Below the pieces are notes generated by a model, which was given only the letters and a program-made list of their open reading frames with translations, did no database searches and was not told the DNA's origin. Positions 9,410-64,000 of a stretch of DNA of 64,000 nt are shown here, one piece after another. The stretch is from Bdellovibrionales bacterium CG10_big_fil_rev_8_21_14_0_10_45_34. GTDB lineage: Bacteria > Bdellovibrionota > Bdellovibrionia > Bdellovibrionales > 1-14-0-10-45-34. The stretch's first letter is position 1; the number at the start of each line of letters is the position of its first letter. The translations under genes and the position numbers were made by a program. Where the stretch lies: contig PEZS01000009.1 of NCBI GenBank assembly GCA_002778785.1, forward strand, positions 38,105 to 102,104, written 5' to 3'.

Positions 9410-9523
9410 GGAGAAGCAATTGTTCCTTCAAATGCGAGTTCGGATTGGTGCAGTGCTCGCCCCTCGCGAGCGCTGCTGCCGAACGTATGTTCGAGTATTT
9501 TAAGGAACTATTGCTTCTTCTCC
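9410..9523. other. 114-nt nested stem-loop, candidate structured RNA or palindromic element
   Basis: Five successive inverted-repeat pairs close on one another: 9410-9420 with 9510-9523 (3-base bulge), 9422-9428 (GTTCCTT) with 9502-9508, 9430-9435 with 9495-9500 (one G-T pair), 9438-9443 (GTTCGG) with 9479-9484, and 9450-9460 with 9466-9476 around a 5-base loop. A TATAAT hexamer lies at 9375-9380 and a 12-base palindrome (GAGG TTTA CCTC) at 9383-9394 just before the hairpin; I see no good -35. There is no U-tract on either strand. It lies between divergent brnT and the 3' end of fliA, so it could be an independent ncRNA on the plus strand, or a fliA 3'-UTR structure. No protein-like frame runs through it. 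Confidence 0.5.
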
Positions 9524-9560
9524 GGTAGAATGCCACAGATGCGGCATATTCAATCACAGG

Positions 9561-10343
9561 TTAGGAGGCGATGTCACCGGCGTCGAGCGACTGCGCCAAC
9601 TTCACTCTCAGTCTCGACACCGCTTGAGCATGAAGCTGTGAGACGCGGCTTTCGGTCACGCGCAAGACTTTACCAATTTCTTTAAGATTCAAATCTTCAT
9701 AATAGTACAACGAGAGCACTAACCTTTGCTTTTCAGGAAGATCTTGAATCGACCGCATAACAATTTTTTTGATGTGCTTCACATTGAGCTGATTGTGCGG
9801 GTTCGACAACTTGCAGCTTTCTAGTAAATTCAAAATTGATTTCTTGTCGACGTTGCTAAAGGTAGAAGAATCATCAATAGAAAGTAGACTTACCGGACGA
9901 ACTTGATTGAGCAAGTCGTGAAAGTCTTCCATTGATACACCGAGCCTGTTAGCAATCTCCTCTTCTGTGGGAGTTCTATTAAGATCTTGCTCAAGGCGGG
10001 CTATTGTTCGATCGAGAAGCTTGGATTTGTCACGAACGCTTCGAGGCACCCAGTCTTGGGAGCGCAGTTCATCGAGAATCGCACCACGTATCCGAAACTC
10101 TGCGTATGTTTTAAACGTGTTGTCTCTTGATGGATCATACTTTTCGATCGCATCCATAAGACCAATGACACCGCTTGAGATCAAATCGTCGAGCTCGATA
10201 TTGGGTGGCAATCTGATGGCGATTTTTTGAGCAATAAACTTTATCAATGGTGCGTACTCAAGAATCAATTTGTCTTTTTGATCCCGAGTCAGTTTGCTCG
10301 GATCCTCTTTGTATTTCCTGAGTAGTGCGCTACTCTTTGACAT
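9561..10343 (-). CDS. fliA: flagellar sigma factor sigma-28
   Basis: 260-residue FliA/WhiG-type sigma factor that directs late flagellar transcription. Region 2: LIKFIAQKIAIRLPPNIELDDLISSGVIGLMDAIEKYDPSRDNTF then KTYAEFRIRGAILDELRSQDWVPRSVR; region 3: ARLEQDLNRTPTEEEIANRLG; region 4: LPEKQRLVLSLYYYEDLNLKEIGKVLRVTESRVSQLHAQAV. It is last in the fliL-to-fliA run and is separated from flhG by 127 bases, a gap large enough for its own promoter; that gap contains the inverted repeat GAAGCA/TGCTTC (10399-10415). The start ATG 10343 follows AAGGGG. No anti-sigma FlgM is in the window. Confidence 0.96.
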   Translation of the reverse strand: MSKSSALLRKYKEDPSKLTRDQKDKLILEYAPLIKFIAQKIAIRLPPNIELDDLISSGVIGLMDAIEKYDPSRDNTFKTYAEFRIRGAILDELRSQDWVPRSVRDKSKLLDRTIARLEQDLNRTPTEEEIANRLGVSMEDFHDLLNQVRPVSLLSIDDSSTFSNVDKKSILNLLESCKLSNPHNQLNVKHIKKIVMRSIQDLPEKQRLVLSLYYYEDLNLKEIGKVLRVTESRVSQLHAQAVSRLRVKLAQSLDAGDIAS

Positions 10344-10470
10344 ATATACCCACCCCTTCCATAGAGTGTAACAAATCGTGTGTTCGCCTTACAGTCCTGA
10401 AGCATATCTTGCTTCAATCATTTACTTAGGTAGAGTCCCCGCTTTCGCCTTACGTTTGTCCAGAAACAAC

Positions 10471-11277
10471 TCAAGCTACTCCCACTAGTCTTTCCCAGAA
10501 GAAGCTCAGTCCGCCCGGGAGCATGTGCTGATCAGAGCTTGGCTCCATATCTCGTTCGATATACTTCAGCACGGGCAAACAAGATTCGAACGTAAAGAGT
10601 GCGGGCTTTTGTAGCCTTACAGCTTCTTTAATCTTGGCGTCCACCGGAATGCAGCCAACATAATCTAGGGAAACGTCGAGGAATTCATTTGAGACTTTCA
10701 AAAGCCTTTCGAAAACTCTCAATCCCTCTGCTAGACCTTGAACCATGTTAACTAATACCGAGAACTTGCGAACCCGACTTTTCTGCGAAAGAACCTTAAT
10801 GAGCGCATAGGCATCAGTCAAACTAGCTGGATCTGGCGTCAAGGTTACAACAACCTGTTGAACCAACGAGTTGAGGTACAGCACATGGTTCGATAATCCC
10901 GGAGAAGTGTCCACCAGAAGAACATCGTACTTTCTCGGCAAGTGAGACACTTGAGACAGCAACATATAGCGATCTTCTGCATTGAGGTTTTGAAGTTCGC
11001 TTATACCATTTCCGCCTGGGATGAGATCTACACCCGGATATACGTTTACTACTGTATCGCTTAAGCTCATCGTGCCTGATAGAACATCATAGATAGAATG
11101 GCTAAGGTGTCTGCCGAAAAAAAGGTCTATATTTGCCATACCCAAGTCGCCATCTAAAATCAGCACACTCTTATCTTGAGCAGCAAGATACATAGCTAGC
11201 TGGGCCGTGAAAGTTGTTTTACCAACTCCCCCTTTACCTGACGTGATCGATATTGTCTTCATTCTCTCGTGCCTCAT
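10471..11277 (-). CDS. flhG: MinD-like flagellar number regulator ATPase
   Basis: 268-residue ParA/MinD-family ATPase; FlhG (FleN/YlxH) pairs with FlhF to set the number and place of flagella. The deviant Walker A is SGKGGVGKTTFTAQLA near the N-terminus; Walker A' LILDGDLGMANIDLFFG and Walker B LLVDTSPGLSNHVLYL follow. The start ATG at 11277 is fixed by AAGGAG seven bases upstream; an internal ATG five codons later gives the more usual MKTISI start. It overlaps flhF by 44 bases, so the two are translationally linked. The C-terminus lacks a clear amphipathic membrane helix, but I cannot judge this firmly. Confidence 0.93.
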   Translation of the reverse strand: MRHERMKTISITSGKGGVGKTTFTAQLAMYLAAQDKSVLILDGDLGMANIDLFFGRHLSHSIYDVLSGTMSLSDTVVNVYPGVDLIPGGNGISELQNLNAEDRYMLLSQVSHLPRKYDVLLVDTSPGLSNHVLYLNSLVQQVVVTLTPDPASLTDAYALIKVLSQKSRVRKFSVLVNMVQGLAEGLRVFERLLKVSNEFLDVSLDYVGCIPVDAKIKEAVRLQKPALFTFESCLPVLKYIERDMEPSSDQHMLPGGLSFFWERLVGVA

Positions 11278-12910
11278 CTAAAAACTCCTTAGTATATCTC
11301 GATGATAGATTTAAAATCAGATCGACTATTCTTTCTGAGGTTGCAGGTTCCCAATCTTCTGGAACTTTCACACCGGTTGAAAAGCTGTGCAGAGGCAAGT
11401 TATGCGCTTTGCAAACACTCACTAGTACTCCGGGCTCGATACAAAGATCCAAATGCGTAACGATGATGTCTGTTGGGCTAAAGCGGCCGTACTTTTCGCA
11501 CGCCTGATCCAAGTATCTCTTTGATGATGTGGCAGACACCACAAGATGCCTTTTTACCGTTGGACTTGTGCGCTCAAAGCGCAGCAGGTCTTTTAACACT
11601 CGGTATTCATCGAGTGTTCGCACCGAATTAGATGCCGTGTCGACGAGGAGCACATCTAGATCACTCCAAGCGGATACCAGTCTGGTTAAGTCATCAAGAG
11701 ATTGCACTGTAGCGAACCTAGCCCCCATTATTTGGCTGTAGATCTTGAGCTGCTCCGCAGCGCCAACTCTCTGGGTGTCCGAACTGAGAATGCCCACTTT
11801 CAGCGAATGCTTCAGTGAGAGATTCATTGCGTATTTGACGAGCGCAGTCGTTTTGCCCTGACTCGCAGGGCCGACAAAAAAGTGCACTCTTCCGTCGAGT
11901 GAATCATCGACCACTTTCAAAGAATCCAATAGCTCGGTGGCCACCCATGATTCGATGATTCCTTTGTGGTTCCACTGTCTTTCAGCAATTTGATTTTTAA
12001 ACTTGGCTATCAGTTTTTGAACTTCATCCGTCGGCACTCCACCCTCTTCAAGCTGGATCGACATCAACTCGAGGGCTCGTGTCACTTCTCGGCGACGACC
12101 GCTTGTTCTGTCCGTCGGAACATGGGTTAAGGCTTCAATCAAGCCCCGTAGCTGGTTGATTTCCTCTCTAAGTGCAACAACGTCTGTCGATGCAGAGGCA
12201 CTCCCTCGAGCGACATCGGTCAACGACGGCAAAGAAGGACGTTCATCAAATGCATTTAGGGCAGACTTCACGGCCTCGCTGACTCTGGGATTTGCTCCAG
12301 TGATTGGGCGAGCGTTTAAGCCAATCTCTTGCGCCACCTCTTCGGGTGGCTTCGCTTTTTGTGTCAGTGAGTTTGAAACTTTGCTGCCAATAGCATCGAT
12401 CATTTCCGTCACAGTTCGCCCTCTACCTTTGAGAGTGACGAAATCTGCTACTCCCATGTCATTGGCATACGCAGGCTCCTGCGGGTCGTCCTCTATATCA
12501 ATATACCTTTCACTACGAATTTGATCCCAATCCCGCGCGGCAACACGAACAGGAGGCGCCGCTGGTGCGGGCTTCGAGGATCGCTTTTGCATTTCATCAA
12601 TTATGACGCTCTCTACACTCGGCGGAATAAACCTTCTAACCGACTTTTCGATAAACTCCCGTTGTGATTTAGCTGATTTTGAACGCAGCTCCACCTGCTT
12701 TGCCGGAGCCAACCGTGCCTCAGCCGCTTGCTTTTGCCTTAACTTTCCTTCTGATATGGCGGCTGTTACTTCGATGCTATTTTTGCCAAGTAGTCCGTAG
12801 CTGCTTTTGTGATCCTTGGCGGAGAGTATGATCGCTTCTGGGCCAAGCTGCTGCTTAACCATTTCAAGCGCTTCCTTCATAGTTGATGCTTCGAATTTTT
12901 TAACCAACAT
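11234..12910 (-). CDS. flhF: flagellar-placement SRP-type GTPase
   Basis: 558-residue FlhF: an N-terminal B domain (MLVKKFEASTMKEALEMVKQQLGPEAIILSAKD), a long variable linker, then NG domains. The G domain has P-loop GPASQGKTT where the family usually has GPTGVGKTT, a well-conserved SSDTQRVGAAEQLKIYSQIMG, VDTASNS in place of DTAGRS-type G3, and THLD in place of the G4 TKLD. So the fold is clear but three nucleotide-contact motifs deviate. It overlaps the end of flhA by 11 bases and the start of flhG by 44. FlhF normally recruits the first flagellar components to the cell pole. Confidence 0.93.
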   Translation of the reverse strand: MLVKKFEASTMKEALEMVKQQLGPEAIILSAKDHKSSYGLLGKNSIEVTAAISEGKLRQKQAAEARLAPAKQVELRSKSAKSQREFIEKSVRRFIPPSVESVIIDEMQKRSSKPAPAAPPVRVAARDWDQIRSERYIDIEDDPQEPAYANDMGVADFVTLKGRGRTVTEMIDAIGSKVSNSLTQKAKPPEEVAQEIGLNARPITGANPRVSEAVKSALNAFDERPSLPSLTDVARGSASASTDVVALREEINQLRGLIEALTHVPTDRTSGRRREVTRALELMSIQLEEGGVPTDEVQKLIAKFKNQIAERQWNHKGIIESWVATELLDSLKVVDDSLDGRVHFFVGPASQGKTTALVKYAMNLSLKHSLKVGILSSDTQRVGAAEQLKIYSQIMGARFATVQSLDDLTRLVSAWSDLDVLLVDTASNSVRTLDEYRVLKDLLRFERTSPTVKRHLVVSATSSKRYLDQACEKYGRFSPTDIIVTHLDLCIEPGVLVSVCKAHNLPLHSFSTGVKVPEDWEPATSERIVDLILNLSSRYTKEFLDEARENEDNIDHVR

Positions 12911-50119: not shown

Positions 50120-51259
50120 CTATCTGCGTTTGATCTTCTGATTGACCTCAAGCTTTAGCTTTTCAATCTCTACGCCTTGGTTGCCTACAGAGGCGCGTAA
50201 TCTACTTGAGACCGACCCTTGCAACTTGACTCTGTAGTCTGCATTCTCGAGCGGCTTTCTTAACTCTAGCCTTGAAAGATCAATAGCTATTTCAGTGCGG
50301 TTGCCTCTTAGACTCTGCTCCACAGAACTTATGGGGAGCAGTCCTTCAAAGAGCGTAGTATTAGGACCAAACTTTGAATGCTCAAGTTTGAGTTCCAAAT
50401 CCATAATTGGAGCTAGCTCTGTTGCGGCAACAGTGAACTTCAGTAGGTAGCCATCAATTGTTAGATCTTGGATCCCGGCGAATGGCTCAACCAGCTCGGA
50501 CTTCGCATGAACACTGATATCGAATTCAGCAACTATCAGTTTGGATCGACCGTCTTGACTCATCTGCTCGCTCACTCTCTTGCTCTCGATCAAGAGGTGT
50601 TCGCTTTGGCTTCTGGCATTGGAGACAAGGGTTCCGTTTTCAAGCTTCAGCGCCAGCCTTTCAGCTAGTGCACCAGCCAGCAACGACTTCTGAGCATTCA
50701 CCGAGATTCGAGCCTGCACAGTGTAGTCCACTCTTTCGCCTACAGGAACACGAACTGTTCGAGTGCACGCGTAAGCCTCTCTTCTATAGCGGGCCACGTT
50801 CTCGCAAACCTGCCTCGGAATATTTCGGCAAATGTATTCGTTTTGACAAAACCTGCGCGGAACTGAACTACAAATTTGTCTAGGTACATTGTTACAAACG
50901 GTTTCATTACGACACTGGGTTCCTGGACGATTTGGACATACCCGCACTTGGCGACATTGCCTTTGGTACTCTGTCCGGCACACTCTCTCTGGGCGATTGT
51001 AGCAGCGCTGCTCATAGCCGCACTGATTGTCGTACTCTGTCCTACATACCCTTTCGTAGTGGTCGAATACATCACGATAGCAGGTATCCGCGACTTGGCG
51101 CTCCTCGTAAATAGTACTGGTCTTTTGCCCATCTAGCACAACCTGCTGAGACAAATTACTATCTGTTATTTGAACAACGGCTTGATCTGCCGCTTGCGAA
51201 ACTGATGTTGCCAATAAACTCAGACAACAAAGCGCTTTTAGTATCCCTTTTGCTTTCAT
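50120..51259 (-). CDS. exported Cys-rich repeat protein, function unknown
   Basis: 379 residues with a signal peptide (CCLSLLATSVSQAADQ). Residues about 58-165 contain 14 Cys spaced 6-10 residues apart in a repeated pattern such as ERVCRTEYDNQC, ERVCRTEYQRQC, PRQICSSVPRRFC and PRQVCEN; the rest (about 175-379) is a Cys-free, strand-like domain. The paired Cys suggest disulphide-linked modules in the periplasm or outside. ATG 51259 follows GGGGGAG. A sigma-54-like promoter lies 40-60 bases upstream. I do not recognise the family. Confidence 0.72.
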   Translation of the reverse strand: MKAKGILKALCCLSLLATSVSQAADQAVVQITDSNLSQQVVLDGQKTSTIYEERQVADTCYRDVFDHYERVCRTEYDNQCGYEQRCYNRPERVCRTEYQRQCRQVRVCPNRPGTQCRNETVCNNVPRQICSSVPRRFCQNEYICRNIPRQVCENVARYRREAYACTRTVRVPVGERVDYTVQARISVNAQKSLLAGALAERLALKLENGTLVSNARSQSEHLLIESKRVSEQMSQDGRSKLIVAEFDISVHAKSELVEPFAGIQDLTIDGYLLKFTVAATELAPIMDLELKLEHSKFGPNTTLFEGLLPISSVEQSLRGNRTEIAIDLSRLELRKPLENADYRVKLQGSVSSRLRASVGNQGVEIEKLKLEVNQKIKRR

Positions 51260-53845: not shown

Positions 53846-54943
53846 TCAGTACAGAGTTTCTATTGTTTCTGAAATACCCTGCAAAAAGACCAAGTCATCA
53901 CTTGGCAATGCGTTTCTAGCGACATTTAACTTCTCTAAATGCGGGTGAACTTTAAAAAGTGATCTATCAAACGCCTGCAAATGGTTATTAGAAAGATTGA
54001 GAGCCTTTAGCCGAGGGTTATTTTGCAAAGTTTCACTCTGAAAAGCTCTAAGATGGTTTTGGCTTATATAAAACCCTAAAAGTTCGGTTAGTGGAGCGAA
54101 GGTCTTTGGATTCAAGCGCTGAAAGGCATTGTTACTGAGATTCAGTTTATATAATTTGGAGTTAAACCTAAATTGATTCTCTGAAAGATGCGAAAGTCCA
54201 ATTTCGCCTAAATAGAGCTCACCGAGAGAAACCAATTCGTAAAAAACTTCTTGCGCCAAAAAAAGACCTCTATTCCCTGTCAAATTAAGTATTTTCAGCC
54301 GCTTTAAGTCCTTAAAAGCTAACCTTTCAATAAATACCATGTCATTGTACTCGAGATAGAGGGTTTCCAATCCCGTAAGGCCTCGTAAGTCTTCCTTACC
54401 CAAAACCTTTAAACCAAGAGATCCAAGATTGAGCACTTTGATAGTTTCAAGGTCTTCAAAAGTAATAGCATCTTCTGCTTTACCTAGAGCGCGCACAATG
54501 ACATTAATAATTTTTTCGTTGCGGCCCTCTAACGGGCTCCGGATCGCATCTTTTTGTTCTCGAAGCCGGCTCTCACGCATTGAGTTCTCTTGGGCAACTC
54601 GGCTTCTTTTTGCTCTGTCTTGGTCTTGGTCGATCTGCTTTAACTCTTGCGCAACAAGAAGCACCAGCTCATCTTCGGTAATCCCTTCACTTTCTGCTTT
54701 CAATACAAGATGGCGCCAGCTTCTGTTGAGCACTAGCATTTGCCAGCGACGTGATGCTAGATGAACATTTTCATCTAGTCGACACCAGCTACTAATCGCA
54801 TTTTGTAAAAATAAGCTCGGGGGGACGCTAGGCACGAAAAGGTCACACTGGTTTTCAGTACCGAAAGATCTCATCGGCAAGCCCGCTAGCGACACAGAGA
54901 ACACCAAAAGTATCGGCCTCAAAATTAACCCTAAGCGAATCAA
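53846..54943 (-). CDS. exported leucine-rich-repeat protein
   Basis: 365 residues: signal-like start (GLILRPILLVFSVSLAGLPMRSFG), a charged helical region (about 60-160), then about eight LRR units (LKVLGKEDLRGLTGLETLYLEYNDMVFIERLAFKDLKRLKILNLTGN, LYKLNLSNNAFQRL, LKALNLSNNHLQAF, LEKLNVARNALP). The TTG start at 54943 follows GAGG. LRR domains bind proteins or glycans; the ligand is unknown. It follows the shorter LRR gene by 16 bases on the same strand, so the two probably belong to the same operon. Confidence 0.8.
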   Translation of the reverse strand: MIRLGLILRPILLVFSVSLAGLPMRSFGTENQCDLFVPSVPPSLFLQNAISSWCRLDENVHLASRRWQMLVLNRSWRHLVLKAESEGITEDELVLLVAQELKQIDQDQDRAKRSRVAQENSMRESRLREQKDAIRSPLEGRNEKIINVIVRALGKAEDAITFEDLETIKVLNLGSLGLKVLGKEDLRGLTGLETLYLEYNDMVFIERLAFKDLKRLKILNLTGNRGLFLAQEVFYELVSLGELYLGEIGLSHLSENQFRFNSKLYKLNLSNNAFQRLNPKTFAPLTELLGFYISQNHLRAFQSETLQNNPRLKALNLSNNHLQAFDRSLFKVHPHLEKLNVARNALPSDDLVFLQGISETIETLY

Positions 54944-54959
54944 CTCAACAACCTCGTTT

Positions 54960-55376
54960 TTACAAATGTAAACTCAATTTTGGAAACTGCTTCCAAACTC
55001 TCTGCCTAAAAGCCTCAATATCTTTGTATTCAAAAGGACTGCCATACAGAAAGAGGGTCTTTAGTCTACTTAGCAACTCAGACGGCATCGGTGGTAGGTG
55101 TACCATTCTGTTGTAGCTCAAATTAACAAATTCTAATCCCAGTGAATTTCGCAAGAGGCTTCCATCGAAATCAATATGTAGATTGTGATCCAGCCACAGC
55201 GTCTCCAAGCTAATCAATTCTAAAAATGCAGAGGGGTCAATTTCTTCTATATACATATTAGGCCTAACCCTTTTACTCCACTTTTCCGAAGGGCCGGTAG
55301 ATCTGCCCGATTGAGCCACATCATGGCCGAGGCTCACGCGAATGACAGACTTGGCTGAGCTGTTCAATAAAATCAT
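54960..55376 (-). CDS. short leucine-rich-repeat protein, possibly truncated
   Basis: 138 residues. The last 90 are LRR-like (FLELISLETLWLDHNLHIDFDGSLLRNSLGLEFVNLSYNRMVHLPPMPSELLSRLKTLFLYGSPFE). The first 35 or so residues come from DNA that also encodes the C-terminus of the transglutaminase/VWA protein (56-base overlap), look unnatural, and have no signal peptide. An ATG at the MYIEEIDPSAF position would give a shorter start without the overlap. This may be the surviving 3' end of a larger LRR gene. Confidence 0.55.
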   Translation of the reverse strand: MILLNSSAKSVIRVSLGHDVAQSGRSTGPSEKWSKRVRPNMYIEEIDPSAFLELISLETLWLDHNLHIDFDGSLLRNSLGLEFVNLSYNRMVHLPPMPSELLSRLKTLFLYGSPFEYKDIEAFRQRVWKQFPKLSLHL

Positions 55377-58300
55377 GCTCTAAAAAGGTCAGGTTATTCA
55401 GGGGCGTCCCACTCCAATTCTCGTAGTTGCTCAAGACGTCGTTAAAAAAAGCCAATTTTACTTCAACAGAAAGGTTTGCAGCGTGAACGGCGCTAATTAG
55501 CCTTTCGATAATTCTAACAAATCGAGGGTTTTGGACCTCTTTGTTCTTGGTGCTAACAATGGCAAGAAGGGCTCTAACTTTTTCGGTGAATCGTTGAGAC
55601 TCATACCAATTTGTATTTGGCAAAGTAAGTGCGGAAAGTCCAGATACGGTTTGAGAATCTAGCCCCTTATTGGCTGGGATTGCAAAGGCCTCATTGTCGA
55701 TCTGCGGATTAGAAGCCTCGTGAATAAACTTTTCAATTGCTGTCATATCTATGTGAGTGACCATCGAGCGTGAGTTCTCTGTGTTTGTCATTTGCATAAT
55801 TTCTTCAAGAGAACGATTTTTTTCGTCGCCAAAATGAACCAGATTAAAGAAGGCTTTCATCTCTGGCGGCAACGCCTTGAGATCTTTCGTAACTTTCTCT
55901 CTGTCAAAACTAGCCCCGCCATCAGTGATGAGGGTCATATTGATTCGCGTGAGCTTAAATCTTTGCTGGATATTATTTCCACCAGGATTGTTTTTGTAAT
56001 ACTTCAAAGCGAATCGAAAAAACTCATCAAAACAAGGCTGAAATTCGGTGCCCTCTCCAGCAGCGGTAGAGGTGTTTAAGTACTTTAGCGCTTCGACCAT
56101 AGCCTGCTCTTGCGTCTCAACAAGAACTGGCTCATAGGTCGTATCGCCAAAAGGAATCAGCACAACCACATTTAGGGGTTTGCCAAAATGATCTTTTTTT
56201 GAGAGCTCTTTATCAACAATTGCCGAAATTGCACTAGCCTGAATCCTTGCCTTCGCGCCGGCCATCGAGCCGCTAATGTCAAAAAACACAACTTGTAAAG
56301 ACCGCTCAAGCGTATCTTTATGGCCTGGAGCCTCGTGCATCTGCCTGTACCAGCGCATGTATTGTTCATCTCTTACTAGGCGGCTTAAAAGCGAAGTCGC
56401 CGCATCGGGATGCGGATCAAAATTGGGTATCCATCTGTCAAAACGGGCGATGTCATTCACGCCAGCTAGTACAAGATCTTCAGATCCGCGTTTTCTCACT
56501 TCGCTTCTAAGAAGCGATTTGAAAAACCTGACACGAAACTCCCTTTCAGTCGCCAGAAAAAAGTTAAAGTGCTTTGCAATCAAGCTAGCTTGAAGCACGC
56601 CAGCAAGATCACCTTTTATGAGTGCATCAAACATACTGTTTTGATCTTGTGATCCTAAAGTCTTTGCCTCCGGATATTTTGCTGTTAGCCACTTTCGAAT
56701 GACATCCCCTGGCAGTTGCTTCATGACTCTTTGAATCAGCTCATGTCGATGCGAACTAGGATGAGCCTGCTTTTGAAAGTCGCCAATGATCAGATCAAGC
56801 TGCGACAAAAAGTTTTTTTCTTCTGTGGTAAGAGACCTTAGCTCCGCAAGTAACTGGTAGTAAGCTCGTATGGATTTTAAAGCGCGATAAGAAACCTCTG
56901 GGTCTTTGTAAATCGAGTTCTTCGCCAAAGTGAGCATATCTTGAACAGAACCATCAGCAATGCCGTAAACTAGTTCAAAGTATTTCAGAAGTTGAGCTTT
57001 TGCTCTTGCGATATAGGGAGAGAGTATTTTGATGTGGACGGGGTCTGTGAATTTTTCCGAAATCCTGTCGAACATTGCAAGCAGCTCGCCTCGCTTGACT
57101 TTCTTTTGGTGATTTTCCAAAAGCTCTAGGACGATTTGCCGAACCAACGCCCCCTCGGCAGAGTCATAGTCTTTAGACACCTCAGAAAGTTCTTTAGGGT
57201 CTTCAAAGCGAATCGCATGGCTGCTGTTATTGCTTCTCGCTTGTCCTTCTTTATTTTCCTTCTCATTACTTGCACCTATCGAATCCTCAGCAATACCTCT
57301 TGAAACCTCCGTACCTGTTGATTCCTTATCGGCAACTGTCGAATCTTGATCGATACCAGTGGAGCTACTTTCTGAGTCTCCCAAAGCTTGAGACTGGTGA
57401 TTTTCGGCGGGGTTCTGCTCAGCGGCGATGGCATCTTCAGATTTCGCGTTCGTAGACTTCTCGTCTTTATCTTTTTTGAATTCTGTCTGACTCGGTTTTT
57501 GATCCGCCGAAACCGAGTTGCCCTTAATTCTTTTATCCGACCTCGGGCTACCGCCTTCTTGCTGACTCGATCCGCTCTCTGAGCCCTTGGCCTCAGCAGA
57601 TGAATCTTCATTTGATGAAGCCTTCTCTTGGCCCTGTTGGTTTTCGCTACCTTTGCTTTGGCCGTCATCTGACTCTTCACCAGAGTCTTGCTCTTCGCTA
57701 GAAGTGTTTTCGGAGTCTTCCGATCTTCTATCTAGCGGATCTTCTGCTTCATCAAGTTTTTCTTTTTTATCTTGGCCTTGTGGATTGTTTTTGTTGGGAG
57801 TGAAATCAAAAGGCTCCCATTTGCCATCTAAAAACACCTCGACCCACGCATGACCAGGGTCATTTATGTCGACAACATTGAAGTTTTCACCATCAATCGA
57901 CTTACTGCCCGCAACGGGATAGCCGCCGACTAATCTCGTCGGCAGCTTGAGAAAGTCTCTTATCAAAGTCGCGCCAATCAAGGCGCCTCCATCGCAGTTG
58001 AACATTTTTACTATGGCAAAAGCGAGAGCTTTGGGAACGCCTTGCGCTAGGAGGGCCTTTAGCTCTTCGTTTCGTTTTTTATAGGCGGTCTTACGTCTGC
58101 CTGATGTCGTGTTGTAAAGATAAGGTCCATCAAACTGAAACCACTCACTTAGATAACGCACTCGCTGTTTAGGATCTTTGCCCCCAAATCTTTTGGCTCT
58201 TTCTATTCCAGATAGCACATGCTGGGGCCACGCTTCTTGGGGTATCCCACTGGGGCCGGTCAAAAATCTAAGCGCCTCGGCCGATAAGCTCTGGGACCCA

Positions 58301-59340
58301 TAGGGTTCAACAAAGAGAAAGACCTTCTCTGAGAGTTTGCGACCGGCCTTAGCTCTTACGACATACTCTTCAGGTACAACTTCAATGACCTCATAATCAT
58401 CGTATTCAGCTGCGACAGGCTCCCAGTCATAAGACTTGGGAATTGCCAGCTGAGAACTTGCACCACCTTCGTTGAGTAAGAACGTCTTCTTGAAGGCATT
58501 CGTATCGCCAACCAGTTTGCTCTTTGCTCGGCGCGGCCTTCTTACCGCATAGTTCTTTTGCAAGTCGTCGGTTAAGACTTCAAACGAGGCCGTCTTCAAA
58601 ACTTTCATTGGTACTGGCGCCGTCGTGCCAATCGCGTAATTGGGCTCACTACTGCCGCCAGTTTCGCCGCCCACATCTTTATTTCGAACTTCATAATGAT
58701 CTGGGCTCTGCTCAGGGAGTCTGGCCTTTTGCGGCGGAGCTTCTTGCCCTGATGAATCCTGTCCTTCATCGACTGACTCTTCATCTTCACCGTCTACTTC
58801 AAATTTTTCTTCCTCTAAACTCTTAACAGGTTTACGGGGTGTCAAACTTTCAAGCGATTGAATCGCCTGTAGCGCCATTATCGCACCAAAGATAGCTTGG
58901 GGTGATGGGCTTTTGCTATTTAAGACCTTCACTAGCTCCTGCCGAAACTCTTTGATGTGTTGGGCCAGCTCACCTCTACTCATCCTTTCTTGATGATTGA
59001 GAACCTTTGCCAGAATAAGCTTGCTCGATCTAAGAGGCGCAAAGCTCGCTTCTAGCAGTTTTTGCACCTCGCCCATTTTGTTCATATCATTCATCGCTAT
59101 TTCAAACGGATGAGGAACGTTTTTTATTTCTGGACGAGATTCTAAACTTTCAACCCAATCTTGAATTCGCATTTGCAAAGTTTTAGTTACATGATGGTTT
59201 TGTGTTGGCTCTTTTGGAGTTTGCAAAAGACTTTCACATTGGTTGGGTGCTTTTTTCTTGGCATCCGATAGTAAATCTGTTGGCCAATGTAAGGCGACCA
59301 ACGAAAAGCCTAAAATAATAAAATTGAATGAGCGAATCAC
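55321..59340 (-). CDS. exported transglutaminase-like plus von Willebrand A protein
   Basis: 1339 residues. N-terminal signal-like segment (FNFIILGFSLVALHW), helical region, then a transglutaminase-like fold with the triad Cys449 (FNCDGGALIGATLIRDFLKLPTRLVGGY), His497 (HAWVEVF) and Asp512 (WEPFDFTP). A 200-residue Ser/Glu/Gln-rich, disordered linker (about 520-720) follows. A helical region precedes a VWA domain with the metal site DISGSM at Asp1021, running to about 1220. Such proteins in MoxR clusters act with an AAA+ partner. GTG start at 59340 after AGGA. The AAA+ gene ends nine bases upstream. Confidence 0.85.
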   Translation of the reverse strand: MIRSFNFIILGFSLVALHWPTDLLSDAKKKAPNQCESLLQTPKEPTQNHHVTKTLQMRIQDWVESLESRPEIKNVPHPFEIAMNDMNKMGEVQKLLEASFAPLRSSKLILAKVLNHQERMSRGELAQHIKEFRQELVKVLNSKSPSPQAIFGAIMALQAIQSLESLTPRKPVKSLEEEKFEVDGEDEESVDEGQDSSGQEAPPQKARLPEQSPDHYEVRNKDVGGETGGSSEPNYAIGTTAPVPMKVLKTASFEVLTDDLQKNYAVRRPRRAKSKLVGDTNAFKKTFLLNEGGASSQLAIPKSYDWEPVAAEYDDYEVIEVVPEEYVVRAKAGRKLSEKVFLFVEPYGSQSLSAEALRFLTGPSGIPQEAWPQHVLSGIERAKRFGGKDPKQRVRYLSEWFQFDGPYLYNTTSGRRKTAYKKRNEELKALLAQGVPKALAFAIVKMFNCDGGALIGATLIRDFLKLPTRLVGGYPVAGSKSIDGENFNVVDINDPGHAWVEVFLDGKWEPFDFTPNKNNPQGQDKKEKLDEAEDPLDRRSEDSENTSSEEQDSGEESDDGQSKGSENQQGQEKASSNEDSSAEAKGSESGSSQQEGGSPRSDKRIKGNSVSADQKPSQTEFKKDKDEKSTNAKSEDAIAAEQNPAENHQSQALGDSESSSTGIDQDSTVADKESTGTEVSRGIAEDSIGASNEKENKEGQARSNNSSHAIRFEDPKELSEVSKDYDSAEGALVRQIVLELLENHQKKVKRGELLAMFDRISEKFTDPVHIKILSPYIARAKAQLLKYFELVYGIADGSVQDMLTLAKNSIYKDPEVSYRALKSIRAYYQLLAELRSLTTEEKNFLSQLDLIIGDFQKQAHPSSHRHELIQRVMKQLPGDVIRKWLTAKYPEAKTLGSQDQNSMFDALIKGDLAGVLQASLIAKHFNFFLATEREFRVRFFKSLLRSEVRKRGSEDLVLAGVNDIARFDRWIPNFDPHPDAATSLLSRLVRDEQYMRWYRQMHEAPGHKDTLERSLQVVFFDISGSMAGAKARIQASAISAIVDKELSKKDHFGKPLNVVVLIPFGDTTYEPVLVETQEQAMVEALKYLNTSTAAGEGTEFQPCFDEFFRFALKYYKNNPGGNNIQQRFKLTRINMTLITDGGASFDREKVTKDLKALPPEMKAFFNLVHFGDEKNRSLEEIMQMTNTENSRSMVTHIDMTAIEKFIHEASNPQIDNEAFAIPANKGLDSQTVSGLSALTLPNTNWYESQRFTEKVRALLAIVSTKNKEVQNPRFVRIIERLISAVHAANLSVEVKLAFFNDVLSNYENWSGTPLNNLTFLEHDFIEQLSQVCHSREPRP

Positions 59341-59349
59341 ATAAGCTTC

Positions 59350-62300
59350 CTAATCAATATTGGCGTTCGGGTAATGTCTCTTGACGTCTTCTTTGTTAAC
59401 ACCCGCTGCAAGAAGCCAGTTTACTCTTTCTTGCTCAGAGGTGAATAAGCTTGGGAAGATATTGGGATTTTCAAGTATCAATTGCAGGCGATTCTTTATA
59501 AATCTTTGCAAAACAGATGTTGCCACCTGCGCAATGATGTCAGCTTCTTTCTTAAGGTATTCGAGGGTTCTAATATCAAAAAGCGGCATGCGATCAAGCA
59601 GCTCTGAGTGATCTGACGCTTCTACTGAAACTTCTGGGAATCCATCACTCTTGACCGAGTATTTCAGCTGATAGAATGGGTTTGCTGTCATAAAAAGGTT
59701 TAAAAAAGCAACAATGTCGCTCATTTTAAACACAATGCCGCTGTCGACAATTTCTTCTAGCGAATCGCCATCAAAAATGCGCTTGGCAAAAACAGCTGCT
59801 GAAAGCTCTCCGCCCTGAGAAAGAATAGATAGCGCAGATCTATTGCTCTCTCCTCGGCTAGCCACAAAGTAATCTGGAGCAGCTTCGGGGTTATCCATGT
59901 GAGTGGCCCGTAGTACCTCCGACTCATCTACAAAAATTTTGTTGAGGCGAAATTGAATCTGAACGAGCATTTCATCAATACCAGGATCATCTTCTGAAAA
60001 AGAAAAAAAGCTGGTTTCATTATCAATTTTCGTCGTCAGCATTTCTTTAATGGGCACAAAGAAGAGTGGCATATTCAATTTTGCCGAACGCCCTAAATAT
60101 GCTTTCAAATAAATGTCTCTCAAGTCACTTAGTTTTAATTTGTTAAAAGCATACGCTTTTCTTTGAATGCGGTCCCATATCGGCCAAGCTGTCGAAAATT
60201 CGCCAAGGCCAATCAAAAAGTTGCTGGGAGTTGCATTGGTGGCAATCAAAAACGCCCTGACATTGCTTTTGACAAGTTCATCACCAGAAAGCACTTCTCG
60301 CTCGTTCAACAGCGAAAGCAAGGCCGTTCGCACGCCGGGGGGCGCTTTTTCAAACTCATCCAAAAGAACAAAAAAGACATCCTTCGCGGCCAAGGTACCG
60401 TCAAATTTGTATTTGTAGCCTTCGCCTCGTCTCATCGCCCCTAAATCTGGGCGCCCCACAACCTCGCCCTCTGTTGACATAGGGTGAAACTGTTTGATGT
60501 AGGCATGACCCTTTTCACTCAAGCCCGCTTTTACCAAAAGGCTAACCAATTCTTCGTTAATGGTAGCGATTTGAGCTTCTGACAAGGTGTCTAGGGCAGC
60601 ACTAATAATTAAACGTGATTTTAGTGTTTTGGCCGACCCCGGCCCACCATAAAGTGCAATGTTTTTGCCGCTCGTCACTGCCACGGTAGTCAAAATCGCT
60701 TGAAGCTCTAGTTCACTATCTAGAAACTGAGATTTAAGTTCGTTGTAAAATAATCTTAACGACTCTAAAGCCATAAGTTTGAGTTCTCGAGAACTGCCGT
60801 TTTCAAAGGCAGCTGCCATTTTGGCTCGTAGCTCATTGGCCAGATCAGAGTTTTGTTTTTCGGTTTCTAATAAAAGAGCTTCGAGCTTCTTTAGATCAAA
60901 ATTGTACGTCTTTGGATCTGACAATTTTTCGATCTCACTGTTAACGGCCGACAGAAATTCTTGCTGAAACTCTTCTAAGTCTTTTAATTGTTCTCTTTCG
61001 CCTTGGCGGAGGGCCGCTTTGTCTAAAAACTCTTTTGTTCGGCCGCTACCAACAAACCGAGGTTGAGACCGTCTTTCTGAAAGCGCCTTTTTTTGCCTTA
61101 TCAGAAAGTTTTCATACTTACGCTTAAGAATTTCGTTGAGGTTAACAAAATACTTGGCCTTAGCAGTGGATCTCCTTGCTAAAACCATTGGATGATCAGA
61201 CGCTTCCAGCTCTAAGCGCACCTCTTCGTTAGGATAAAGAACGGATCCTTTATCTGGATCAAAAATCACCTTTCGACTTTGTCCTTTTCGATTCTTGTAA
61301 GAGAAAGTCAAATTGTGCGGATCAAAAACACCAAGCGAAACTCGGTTTTTGATGTAAGGGTTTTCGGAAGCGCGCTTATTAGAATCACTACCAGATACCT
61401 CATCGTCATCTTCAAAAAGCGATAATTTATTAGAGTTAATATCCGCCGCTGCGCGAGGTTTCTTTGCAGAAGAATCATTGACCAAATGGGTGTGCAAAAT
61501 AAACGCAACCGGCAAGGCGTGTTCGTTAACAAAACTTTCTACTCCACCCTGAAGGAGAGGCACTGCCAACAGGGGCAAATCCGCCGGATGCATTGTTAAA
61601 CGCAATTTTGAGTAAGGTACTCCATCTAATAGCTGTCTTACCAAAAAAGCGGACTTCCATAGAGGCACTACTTTCGTGTGTGTGCGCGTCGAGCCCGAAA
61701 ATGGCGGATAGTACTTTGGCGGACTGTTTGTACCTTGCGCTTCTTCAATCGCTTTGTTCAATTTAGCCGTGTAAACACGGTCCATGTGAAGGCCAATCTC
61801 TAAGGCTGAACCTAGGAGCATATCATCAGGTATTTGTACTTTTTCTAAAAGAGGGCGAATCGCTGCCAAGTCAATAAGGTGAAGTTGCTTGTCGCCAGAA
61901 GAATTAACAGTTTCGATCAGAAGGTAAAGATCTCGCGCTGATGGGGTAACATTCACGACATGGATTTTAACTGCAAAACGGTCTACCATAGCCATGCGGC
62001 CGCCCACTTCGCTAGGGGGTGCTTGCGCGATAAATTCACCTTGTGTCATATTGGTGGTTGCTGCTACGGCTTGAAGCATGGTTTGCACAACCCGATTGCC
62101 GATTAGGGCCTGCCGCTCGTTAAGAATAGATAGCAATGTCATTTGTATCGAAACCGGCATTTTGTCGATTTCATCTATAAGGCCAAAAAGATTATGAGGA
62201 GCTATCAAAGCTCTCGAGTAGTCAATCTCGTAGTCCCCTTCTTCGATAAGTTTAAAAGGGTCCGGCCCACCGACAAAGTCCCTCTCACTCATTGCTTGAT

Positions 62301-63060
62301 TACACTGTTTCACAAAAACTTGAATGTCTCTTAGCCAAGCTGCCTTTTCTTCGTCTGTGGCACGCTCTCTAATTGCGGCAAGTTGTGATTCCATCAGTTT
62401 TCTGATGGCGAATGTTTTGGCACCGCCACCGGGGCCATCTAGCATAATATTCTCTTTTGCTAAAATGGCGCTGGCTGCATAAAGAAGCATGTTTTCCATT
62501 TCATAAAGAGAGCTATTGAGCGCTGTAAGACCCTTTCTTGTTTTTTCCCAGCTTTCCGCAAAGTCGTGTTCGCGTTGCGCTTCCGTCGAGACAGGATTAG
62601 AGCGTTTTAAACCTAAAATAGGTTGCCCCTGGGCAGCAGAGCGCAGGTTAGAGGCATTGCCGTACCAACTGCCGCCACGAATGACACGGTTGGAACCCTC
62701 TGTATACCCTGGGTCTTTACCGCCATGATGAGGTGAACTAACGGTTTCCCCCCGAACGTTTCCACTAAGTGCCTGAGCTTTATTGCCGATGCCTTTATCG
62801 TCGTTTCCTTTATTATCTTCGTTGCCTTCATCAGTCGAAGTTTGCTGGGGAAGTTTTGAAACTGATGATCGGCCCGATACGGCCGACTCATTTAAAAGAT
62901 TCGTACAGATTTCTTCGGAAGCAGGCGAGTCCGCTGGCTTCGCCTTATCTGTTGCCGCGGTAGAGGTCGACGAGGAAAGTGATAAAGAGAGCAACGCCCC
63001 AACAGCGACTACAAAAATTTTCAGCGACGAAAAAGACCGCCAGTATCTGTAATTCAACAA
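59350..63060 (-). CDS. exported double RavA/MoxR-type AAA+ protein
   Basis: 1236 residues. N-terminal signal-like segment (IFVVAVGALLSLSLSSSTSTA). Residues 98-152 resemble the C-terminus of SUMF1/FGE proteins (SNRVIRGGSW). AAA1: P-loop GPGGGAKT at 209-216, Walker B LIDEIDKM at 294-301, then LLSILNERQALIG. AAA2: P-loop GGPGSAKT at 805-812, Walker B VLLDEFEKA, then ALLSLLNEREVLSG and IATNATPSN. The AKT ending of both P-loops is typical of MoxR/RavA. A long charged region (about 530-790) separates them. TTG start at 63060, six bases after GGGAGG. Immediately upstream is a strong hairpin. It is next to the VWA/transglutaminase gene that would be its partner. Confidence 0.88.
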   Translation of the reverse strand: MLNYRYWRSFSSLKIFVVAVGALLSLSLSSSTSTAATDKAKPADSPASEEICTNLLNESAVSGRSSVSKLPQQTSTDEGNEDNKGNDDKGIGNKAQALSGNVRGETVSSPHHGGKDPGYTEGSNRVIRGGSWYGNASNLRSAAQGQPILGLKRSNPVSTEAQREHDFAESWEKTRKGLTALNSSLYEMENMLLYAASAILAKENIMLDGPGGGAKTFAIRKLMESQLAAIRERATDEEKAAWLRDIQVFVKQCNQAMSERDFVGGPDPFKLIEEGDYEIDYSRALIAPHNLFGLIDEIDKMPVSIQMTLLSILNERQALIGNRVVQTMLQAVAATTNMTQGEFIAQAPPSEVGGRMAMVDRFAVKIHVVNVTPSARDLYLLIETVNSSGDKQLHLIDLAAIRPLLEKVQIPDDMLLGSALEIGLHMDRVYTAKLNKAIEEAQGTNSPPKYYPPFSGSTRTHTKVVPLWKSAFLVRQLLDGVPYSKLRLTMHPADLPLLAVPLLQGGVESFVNEHALPVAFILHTHLVNDSSAKKPRAAADINSNKLSLFEDDDEVSGSDSNKRASENPYIKNRVSLGVFDPHNLTFSYKNRKGQSRKVIFDPDKGSVLYPNEEVRLELEASDHPMVLARRSTAKAKYFVNLNEILKRKYENFLIRQKKALSERRSQPRFVGSGRTKEFLDKAALRQGEREQLKDLEEFQQEFLSAVNSEIEKLSDPKTYNFDLKKLEALLLETEKQNSDLANELRAKMAAAFENGSSRELKLMALESLRLFYNELKSQFLDSELELQAILTTVAVTSGKNIALYGGPGSAKTLKSRLIISAALDTLSEAQIATINEELVSLLVKAGLSEKGHAYIKQFHPMSTEGEVVGRPDLGAMRRGEGYKYKFDGTLAAKDVFFVLLDEFEKAPPGVRTALLSLLNEREVLSGDELVKSNVRAFLIATNATPSNFLIGLGEFSTAWPIWDRIQRKAYAFNKLKLSDLRDIYLKAYLGRSAKLNMPLFFVPIKEMLTTKIDNETSFFSFSEDDPGIDEMLVQIQFRLNKIFVDESEVLRATHMDNPEAAPDYFVASRGESNRSALSILSQGGELSAAVFAKRIFDGDSLEEIVDSGIVFKMSDIVAFLNLFMTANPFYQLKYSVKSDGFPEVSVEASDHSELLDRMPLFDIRTLEYLKKEADIIAQVATSVLQRFIKNRLQLILENPNIFPSLFTSEQERVNWLLAAGVNKEDVKRHYPNANID
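62605..62769 (-). repeat. partial internal copy of the neighbouring SUMF1 gene
   Basis: Residues 98-152 of the AAA+ protein (SGNVRGETVSSPHHGGKDPG YTEG, then NRVIRGGSW) align with the SUMF1-like protein encoded 0.8 kb upstream (LSGNVWEW...SPLKGGIDPV-GTEGPNRVLRGGSW). The DNA agrees too: ACGTTTCCACTAAGT is identical at 62756-62770 and 63531-63545, and CTGCCGCCACG at 62669-62679 and 63429-63439. The copy keeps the frame but lacks about 15 bases and diverges after the RGGSW codons. Confidence 0.7.
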
Positions 63061-63073
63061 CGAAGGCCTCCCT

Positions 63074-63106
63074 GTTCGGCGCTTTGAGTATCAAAGTCAG
63101 CCGAAC
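63074..63106 (-). promoter_or_regulatory. stem-loop abutting the AAA+ gene ribosome-binding site
   Basis: Nested perfect arms GTTCGGC (63074-63080) with GCCGAAC (63100-63106), and CTTTGA (63082-63087) with TCAAAG (63091-63096) around a 3-base loop; only a 1-base and a 3-base bulge interrupt. On the minus strand the hairpin ends one base before the GGGAGG site (63072-63067). It is not followed by a U-tract. A translational switch, protein-binding site or RNA stabiliser are all possible. Confidence 0.55.
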
Positions 63107-63322
63107 TATTTGTGCTGAAAAATTGCTGACTTAGGCTCACTTAGATTGACAAGTGCGGTGTTTAACACGCCATGTTGCTAGCTTCAATTCATCGATCTTA
63201 AGGGTGTAGAACTTTCGTAGCTGTATTCTGTTTTTAGCAACTAAACGCATTGACGTCGGAAAACCCTTTTTGAAATTAGGACCTGATAATGTTCAAGGGA
63301 AAAAGAGTAAAAGGGACAAGGG

Positions 63323-64000
63323 CTACTTGGCTGTCCTCGCGAGGCGGATGCCTATATAGCTGCTGCGGTTCCCAGGACTAACGAGGTGACGGAAATCGGA
63401 GCGCAAGAAAAAAGCAGCGCAGATCCAGCTGCCGCCACGTAACACGCGGTTAGGGCCTTCTGTACCCACGGGGTCTATTCCGCCTTTAAGAGGCGAAATA
63501 CCGTCCCACGCATCCTGTATCCACTCCCACACGTTTCCACTAAGTCCATAAAATGGATTACCATCAATGAAGAGAGGTTTGAGCTGATCTATAGGAACCG
63601 TTCCATCATCGACTGAACGCCCATAGGCAGCGTATTGTTTCAATTTCTCTATATCATTTCTTTTTATCATCTCATCTATGCTGTCGCCGTCTTCAGTTTT
63701 AGCTTTTTGCATCAGGTATTCACGCTGAGCTTCTGTTATAAACGCTCTGTAACGCATTCCTTTTTTATGATCTGGAATTAGACTCTGAAGTGCAGGCTCT
63801 CCAGCTTCTGAAAGATCATTAAGAGCATCGACCCACTCTTCTGCGTCCTCATACGATACCATCTCTACAGGTCTCGTATCGCCTTTAAAATAAGAAGGAT
63901 CAGGATCAATCTGATACTTCTGCGGGAATCGCTTGTTCGCAAGTTCCGCTATGGTTTTATAAATAATCTGGGTGGTAGGAAACGCCATAATCTCAGGCAT
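63323..64000 (-). CDS. formylglycine-generating-enzyme/SUMF1-family protein (partial, runs off the window)
   Basis: 225 codons visible; the gene continues beyond the window edge. The family core is clear: PVEMVSYEDAEEWVDALND, YRAFITEAQREYLMQKA, YGLSGNVWEWIQDAWDG, GTEGPNRVLRGGSW and YIGIRLAR at the C-terminus. SUMF1-fold proteins include formylglycine-generating enzymes and many non-catalytic or ligand-binding homologues; the copper/active-site Cys pair of true FGE is not visible in this part. Codirectional with the AAA+ gene, 262 bases away. Confidence 0.85.
   Translation of the reverse strand: MPEIMAFPTTQIIYKTIAELANKRFPQKYQIDPDPSYFKGDTRPVEMVSYEDAEEWVDALNDLSEAGEPALQSLIPDHKKGMRYRAFITEAQREYLMQKAKTEDGDSIDEMIKRNDIEKLKQYAAYGRSVDDGTVPIDQLKPLFIDGNPFYGLSGNVWEWIQDAWDGISPLKGGIDPVGTEGPNRVLRGGSWICAAFFLRSDFRHLVSPGNRSSYIGIRLARTAK

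Follow-up and report, generated by a model that had tools for sequence, protein, structure and literature searches.

MoxR-type AAA+ ATPases, proteins with a von Willebrand factor A (VWA) domain and the transglutaminase (TG) TgpA are known partners, and such operon partners normally work at the inner membrane. In the MoxR-DUF58-TgpA operon (Pseudomonas TgpA, PDB 6g4h) and in RavA-ViaA, the ATPases belong to the cytoplasm, while TgpA is a multi-pass protein of the membrane. The MoxR-vWA ternary conflict systems, among them beta-propeller subsystem 4 (Kaur et al., 2020; PMC7159879), bring together a bpMoxR-type AAA protein, a VWA protein and a variable third component, which can be a propeller. 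Retroelements tied to MoxR ternary systems have also been described already (Dore et al., 2024; PMC10907252), with a retroelement that mutates a C-type-lectin-type sensor near MoxR-type machinery and one target that carries a signal peptide. Here we analyzed a stretch of 64,000 nucleotides (the window) from Bdellovibrionales bacterium CG10_big_fil_rev_8_21_14_0_10_45_34 (contig PEZS01000009.1, positions 38,105 to 102,104), the end of which carries a block of genes for a SUMF1-type protein, a tandem AAA+ ATPase (the AAA protein), a fused TG/VWA protein and two leucine-rich repeat (LRR) proteins. On balance, and judging from predicted features, we favor the reading that this locus encodes an exported MoxR-VWA remodelling machine which would act where ATP exists, most likely in a prey or host cell.

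With the MoxR-DUF58-TgpA and RavA-ViaA systems the locus shares a RavA/MoxR fold, a VWA partner and a TgpA-like transglutaminase fold, but here TG and VWA are fused, predicted to be exported, and encoded with a tandem AAA protein. It differs from the systems of Kaur et al. (2020) by signals and a cysteine (Cys) tag throughout, and by the TgpA-like domain within its VWA protein. Whereas the VWA protein of those systems strictly bears a C-terminal beta-propeller, none was found in the window TG/VWA protein, where the stretch C-terminal to the VWA domain (about 130 residues) is modelled mostly as helices and shows no propeller by Pfam. The text of PMC7159879 speaks neither of signal peptides or secreted versions nor of Bdellovibrio, and an ATPase without an export signal is implied by its description rather than stated as a rule. 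Because the ATPase is predicted to bear a signal throughout, we file the window system as a relative or variant of the MoxR-vWA ternary systems and not as a plain member. In contrast to the arrangement of Dore et al. (2024), the retroelement lies here on another contig, beside a second exported AAA protein with ClpB-like modules and an M41 peptidase, and the MoxR ATPase itself is predicted to be exported. A likeness in use, with no homology claimed, is found in the Plasmodium PTEX/HSP101 translocon and its PEXEL motif (PMC6550532, PMC8896661), where a signal-bearing AAA+ machine outside the cell goes with a short N-terminal motif, although AAA family, motif and organism are all different. In the literature searched, no paper joined Bdellovibrio, MoxR and transglutaminase, a search on secreted MoxR/AAA+ proteins in Bdellovibrio returned nothing related, and we did not find an exported MoxR, a shared cysteine tag, a C-terminally tagged ClpB-M41 protein or a fused exported TG/VWA protein.

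Gene content, domain identity and distribution

The block comprises five open reading frames, all on the minus strand, with the following features (FGE, formylglycine-generating enzyme):

63323-64000, minus: 3' part of a SUMF1/FGE-fold gene, third component (FGE-sulfatase, Pfam E 1e-18)
63333-63458, minus: variable-repeat-like region in the window SUMF1 gene, related to the retroelement template but diverged
59350-63060, minus: tandem MoxR/RavA-type AAA+ ATPase, 1236 aa, predicted exported (bpMoxR, AAA_5; RavA match)
62953-63060, minus: AAA protein signal peptide (start codon TTG, preceded by GGGAGG)
62893-62907, minus: cysteine tag CTNLL of the AAA protein
62620-62787, minus: SUMF1 C-terminal tail fragment in the N-terminal linker of the AAA protein
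62413-62436, minus: Walker A of AAA domain 1, GPGGGAKT
62161-62187, minus: Walker B of AAA domain 1, FGLIDEIDK
60625-60648, minus: Walker A of AAA domain 2, GGPGSAKT
60346-60372, minus: Walker B of AAA domain 2, FVLLDEFEK
55321-59340, minus: TgpA-like transglutaminase and VWA protein, 1339 aa, predicted exported (weak Pfam matches; fold)
59263-59340, minus: signal peptide of the TG/VWA protein
59224-59238, minus: cysteine tag CESLL of the TG/VWA protein
57796-58233, minus: transglutaminase core region (C449 at 57994-57996, H497 at 57850-57852, D512 at 57805-57807)
55720-56313, minus: VWA domain (MIDAS motif DISGS at 56266-56280)
54960-55376, minus: LRR1, small LRR open frame, 138 aa, without signal or tag
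53846-54943, minus: LRR2, LRR protein, 365 aa, predicted exported (signal 54857-54943; tag CDLFV 54833-54847; LRR_8 E 1.7e-25)

The single direction given by the initial annotation is thus correct, with gaps of 262 bases between SUMF1 and AAA, 9 between AAA and TG/VWA, and 16 between LRR1 and LRR2; its range of 9 to 17 bases depends on the start of LRR1, which is uncertain because the first ATG falls inside the TG/VWA gene, and LRR1 may be a fragment. The FGE fold of the SUMF1 member also holds, with the correction that the window ends where the contig ends, so that this gene is incomplete and its own N-terminus unreadable. LRR2 is the sole LRR_8 gene found in the source genome.

Pfam assigned bpMoxR and AAA_5 across the two modules of the AAA protein, a profile comparison related it to RavA (E 8e-11), and RavA was also the best PDB match of its AlphaFold model (Z 16.6). 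The fold is of the MoxR type with Walker A, Walker B, sensor and Arg finger, and the K/T, DE, N and DR residues are invariant in both modules. For the TG/VWA protein, Pfam gave only weak matches to Transglut_core (E 1e-3) and VWA_4 (E 0.011), and its profile met only low-complexity matches among PDB sequences. The weak assignments were settled by the AlphaFold model, whose top Foldseek match was the periplasmic domain of TgpA (6g4h; E 3.7e-7) and whose VIA-align list was filled by VWA domains, including the MIDAS (metal ion-dependent adhesion site) domain of midasin (Z 15-16.5); both this model and that of the AAA protein are of middling confidence, with a mean pLDDT of about 67 each. The TgpA-like fold carries a Cys-His-Asp triad, of which C and H are invariant and D is at least 90% conserved in 11 homologues, and the VWA fold carries a DxSxS MIDAS with invariant residues. 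Walker A and B, the TG triad and the MIDAS are all retained among homologues.

The AAA protein had matches in 17 genomes when 98 relatives were searched, some of the weak ones being to its SUMF1 fragment only, and the TG/VWA profile had matches in 32 of 368 genomes of the phylum; among the matches listed, all nine named genomes are Bdellovibrionota or Oligoflexia. Both genes are linked at 24 loci, over which AAA and VWA distances correlate with a Mantel r of 0.97 (0 of 2000 permutations), and because of this correlation we consider the two proteins partners. The same five-gene order, proposed as a check on the export reading, was not found in relatives; what recurs is a core of AAA, TG/VWA and a tagged third component, which leaves export unrefuted.

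Export signals and the cysteine tag

In the window, the AAA, TG/VWA and LRR2 proteins begin with signal-like segments and LRR1 does not, which bears out the hydrophobic starts that had been noticed on the ATPase, the TG/VWA protein and one LRR protein. Such N-termini recur in 29 AAA homologues from many families of Bdellovibrionota (the one at locus L050 with an uncertain start) and in 25/25 intact TG/VWA homologues across the phylum, with positive charge, then a hydrophobic core and, nearly always, a cleavage-like site just before a conserved Cys. Cytoplasmic MoxR paralogues lack these signals: among 30 cytoplasmic MoxR proteins of the same order the top hydrophobic score was 1.84, mostly directly before Walker A inside the domain, whereas scores of the exported AAA proteins reached 3.5, well upstream of Walker A. 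The window AAA gene starts at a TTG a few bases downstream of GGGAGG, and its next in-frame start past the signal lies at aa 188, within the conserved region. Cytoplasmic starts were looked for in this gene and none is available, so that the export reading survives this check; a start-site artefact is excluded by this gene together with the N-termini of homologues. Outside the N-terminus, the exported AAA proteins contain 10 Cys in 22,105 residues (0.05%), compared to 18 in 9,952 (0.18%) in cytoplasmic MoxR proteins (p 3e-4) and to 0.94% in signal-less proteins, a figure which by itself overstates a contrast that is smaller with the cytoplasmic MoxR control.

The initial annotation had left it open whether the hydrophobic segments are membrane anchors or export signals. 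In the former case the N-termini would be reverse anchors and the ATPase would stay in the cytoplasm, as in MoxR-VWA(DUF58)-TgpA operons; MoxR, VWA and TgpA are indeed inner-membrane operon partners, and the TG domain does match TgpA. This explanation is nevertheless improbable in our judgment: the N-regions are positively charged with cleavage-like sites before Cys in nearly all homologues, N-termini of this kind are also found on the SUMF1, LRR and propeller parts, and neither the depletion of cysteine nor the tag that ends a second AAA family with signals (see below) would be explained. By hydrophobicity scoring, the TG/VWA protein has a single clear hydrophobic segment, its N-terminal signal. 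To signals acquired by chance, or to an assembly artefact in a single genome, we give almost no credence; the cluster does stop at a contig break, but homologues already refute this idea, since the same arrangement is present in independent genomes of many families. These predicted features give good support to export of the AAA, TG/VWA and third-component proteins across the inner membrane; among them, the conserved charged signals, the cleavage-like sites, the Cys-poor mature proteins and the lack of a cytoplasmic start favor export over anchoring.

Just past the signal, a tag C-x3-[LFY] was found in 45/46 core proteins compared to 1/12 background proteins (p 6e-10), being common to AAA, TG/VWA and third components, with a consensus of roughly N-[KRSQ]-C-[ES]-[DNK]-[LIF]-[LFY]. 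A strict form of the tag was present in 36/49 core proteins and in 1/86 non-lipoprotein signal proteins from a 400 kb sample of the source genome, which was sampled overall as stretches totalling about 0.8 Mb. The tag Cys is usually the single cysteine of the AAA proteins, and in TG/VWA proteins it is invariant in seven aligned homologues. Identity as lipoproteins was rejected, as a lipobox occurs in just 2/49 core proteins and the Cys lies mostly 2-9 residues beyond the predicted signal peptidase I site. A signal protein of 362 aa without a Pfam family (L183 17214-18302) also has a lone tag cysteine (CKWVL).

The second signal-bearing AAA family consists of ClpB-like modules and an M41 peptidase (L117 2154-6455 in the source genome; L194-L205 in relatives), and 11/12 of its homologues carry the tag at the extreme C-terminus (p 2e-15). 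In the source genome this tag reads NRCADLLSG, and the gene that follows encodes the same nine residues as its N-terminal tag. As the peptide is identical while 10/27 bases differ and the flanks are unrelated, the pattern reads as one left by selection on a short portable motif. C-terminal tags also end a signal-bearing zeta toxin + DUF6829 protein with intact Walker A, which adjoins a tagged DUF6829 protein (L193 4635-7511 and 7523-9916), and a J-domain protein with a signal, an intact HPD and the ending TCEGLLK (L226 9760-11475); the zeta toxin and the J-domain protein are of types that need cytoplasmic ATP or partners. Two further signal-bearing, Cys-poor proteins have C-terminal tag-like ends, one with DUF7932 (L215 15491-19456) and one of 217 aa (L217 9485-10138).

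Third components and a diversity-generating retroelement

Beside the AAA and VWA genes there is, as in MoxR-vWA ternary systems, a third component, and its slot is interchangeable between SUMF1, beta-propeller and LRR proteins: it holds WD40 or other propellers at L033, L034, L044, L049 and L092, SUMF1 at L088, L090 and L098, SUMF1 with a propeller at L085, and LRR in the window, while SUMF1 is fused to the AAA protein at L036 and L038. Third components form tandem arrays at several loci. One such array, of SUMF1 genes with a signal and the tag CDG[LI]M, lies on contig C14 (L103) of the source genome; by eye, it is interrupted by an apparent toxin-antitoxin pair and a Fic-like gene. Over 706 nt, the SUMF1 gene that closes this array on the right shares 89% identity with the one at the window end, and the assembly therefore probably broke at a SUMF1 repeat between the window and C14. 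The SUMF1 tail fragment in the AAA linker shares about 52% identity with the tail of the upstream SUMF1 and 64% with a SUMF1 tail on C14; it is probably a recombination relic, and linker DNA at 62639-62726 matches the retroelement template.

This retroelement is on contig C6 (L117, G000:C6:320000-333171; 9494-9619 and 10007-12043) and comprises HRDC, bAvd, a reverse transcriptase and a template repeat, with RVT_1 and bAvd recognized by Pfam. It adjoins an exported SUMF1 protein, its target in cis, and a SUMF1 gene of C14, the paralogue with 89% identity to the window SUMF1, is a target in trans. Differences between template and target fell on 19/30 template A and 1/96 other positions at the C6 target (p 6e-14), and on 12/30 and 2/96, respectively, at the C14 target (p 3e-7); reverse transcriptase, Avd, template and variable repeats and adenine-specific differences together identify a diversity-generating retroelement (DGR). 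The variable-repeat-like region of the window SUMF1 gene differs at 16/30 template A and also at 21/96 other positions (p = 1e-3), unlike the sharp C6 and C14 pattern, and we therefore take it for an old or decayed target. In a relative (G087; L138 3094-4461), a close DGR reverse transcriptase with 70% identity neighbours a SUMF1 gene whose product begins with a lipobox-like segment. A recognition role, as had been suggested for the SUMF1 and LRR proteins, fits well with a slot shared by SUMF1, propellers and LRR and with the targeting of some SUMF1 genes by a retroelement.

Elsewhere in the window, a signal-bearing protein with a cysteine-rich repeat region (50120-51259) apparently has no relation to the MoxR-VWA system.

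Site of action of the predicted machine

As the Walker motifs of both AAA modules are intact in predicted exported proteins, which also keep the full TG triad and the MIDAS, we would expect the machine to work in a compartment that contains ATP. Delivery into the cytoplasm of prey or host is what we infer from these ATPase sites and from the tagged zeta-toxin and J-domain proteins of a single genome; for predators, prey would most simply provide such a site. Sec genes are induced in predation and are held to be used for secreting enzymes into the cytoplasm of the prey (PMC2797640), and a Bdellovibrio ATP transport system was reported by Ruby and McCabe (1986), according to the passage of PMC4834554 that cites them. 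A search of the source genome for an ATP/ADP translocase gave no match, and its positive control likewise gave none. Four secretins were found in this genome, and a route through the outer membrane by way of secretins is possible.

In the mechanism we propose, the signal would be cleaved and the lone tag cysteine would then join or sort the exported parts, by disulphide docking, through sorting or by some other attachment. After crossing the outer membrane, the parts would act in the cytoplasm or the opened cell of prey or host, where SUMF1, propeller or LRR parts would recognize a target, the VWA MIDAS would hold it or relay a signal, the AAA ring would remodel it with ATP, and the transglutaminase-fold domain would cleave or cross-link it. 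In the source genome, the mutation of exported SUMF1 genes by the retroelement could broaden recognition.

Exported proteins might instead draw on ATP set free by cell lysis and function at the cell surface, in the medium or in the periplasm, an example being a conflict system that senses surfaces or acts against phages. This explanation rests on the export evidence as well; the closest families are conflict systems, one Thiohalocapsa DGR target is predicted to be secreted (PMC10907252), and LRR, SUMF1 and propeller folds are well suited to recognizing surfaces. It would have to account, however, for lipoboxes being rare (2/49 core proteins), and PADLOC recognized no defence family among the window proteins. 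Moreover, both ATPase sites are kept, yet the periplasm and the medium are normally without ATP, and for these reasons we regard this second site of action as rather unlikely.

Several points weigh against a machine that is delivered into prey or host. Signals were scored by a simple hydrophobicity and charge rule and not by SignalP, and the tag Cys is missing at two loci (L089 and L099). The cluster showed no gene dedicated to secretion, passage of the outer membrane and entry into another cell are inferred steps, and the predatory lifestyle of the source organism is presumed. Nearly all sampled genomes of a large genus, probably Bdellovibrio (g13), are without the system. The tagged zeta and J-domain proteins have no homologues in 97 relatives, and the C-terminal tag is not enriched genome-wide (4/99 signal proteins vs 2/138 low-Cys proteins); these two proteins are hints only for that reason, and their tags may have arisen by chance. 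More tentatively than we propose the exported machine itself, we suggest as a possibility that the terminal tag C-x3-[LFY], after the signal or at the C-terminus, might mark a delivery route into prey or host for ATP-using machines of cytoplasmic type (MoxR-VWA-TG with hypermutated sensors, ClpB-M41, zeta kinase and J-domain proteins), in a bacterial parallel to PEXEL/PTEX.

By what means predatory bacteria act within their prey is still an open question, and the literature searched gave no export signal for prey-directed proteins. A conserved tag on exported ATPase machines would offer a direct handle, one that predicts an exportome and can be mutated and tracked. If the proposed reading is true, ternary conflict systems, so far mostly cytoplasmic, would be extended to a tool or weapon that works outside the cell.
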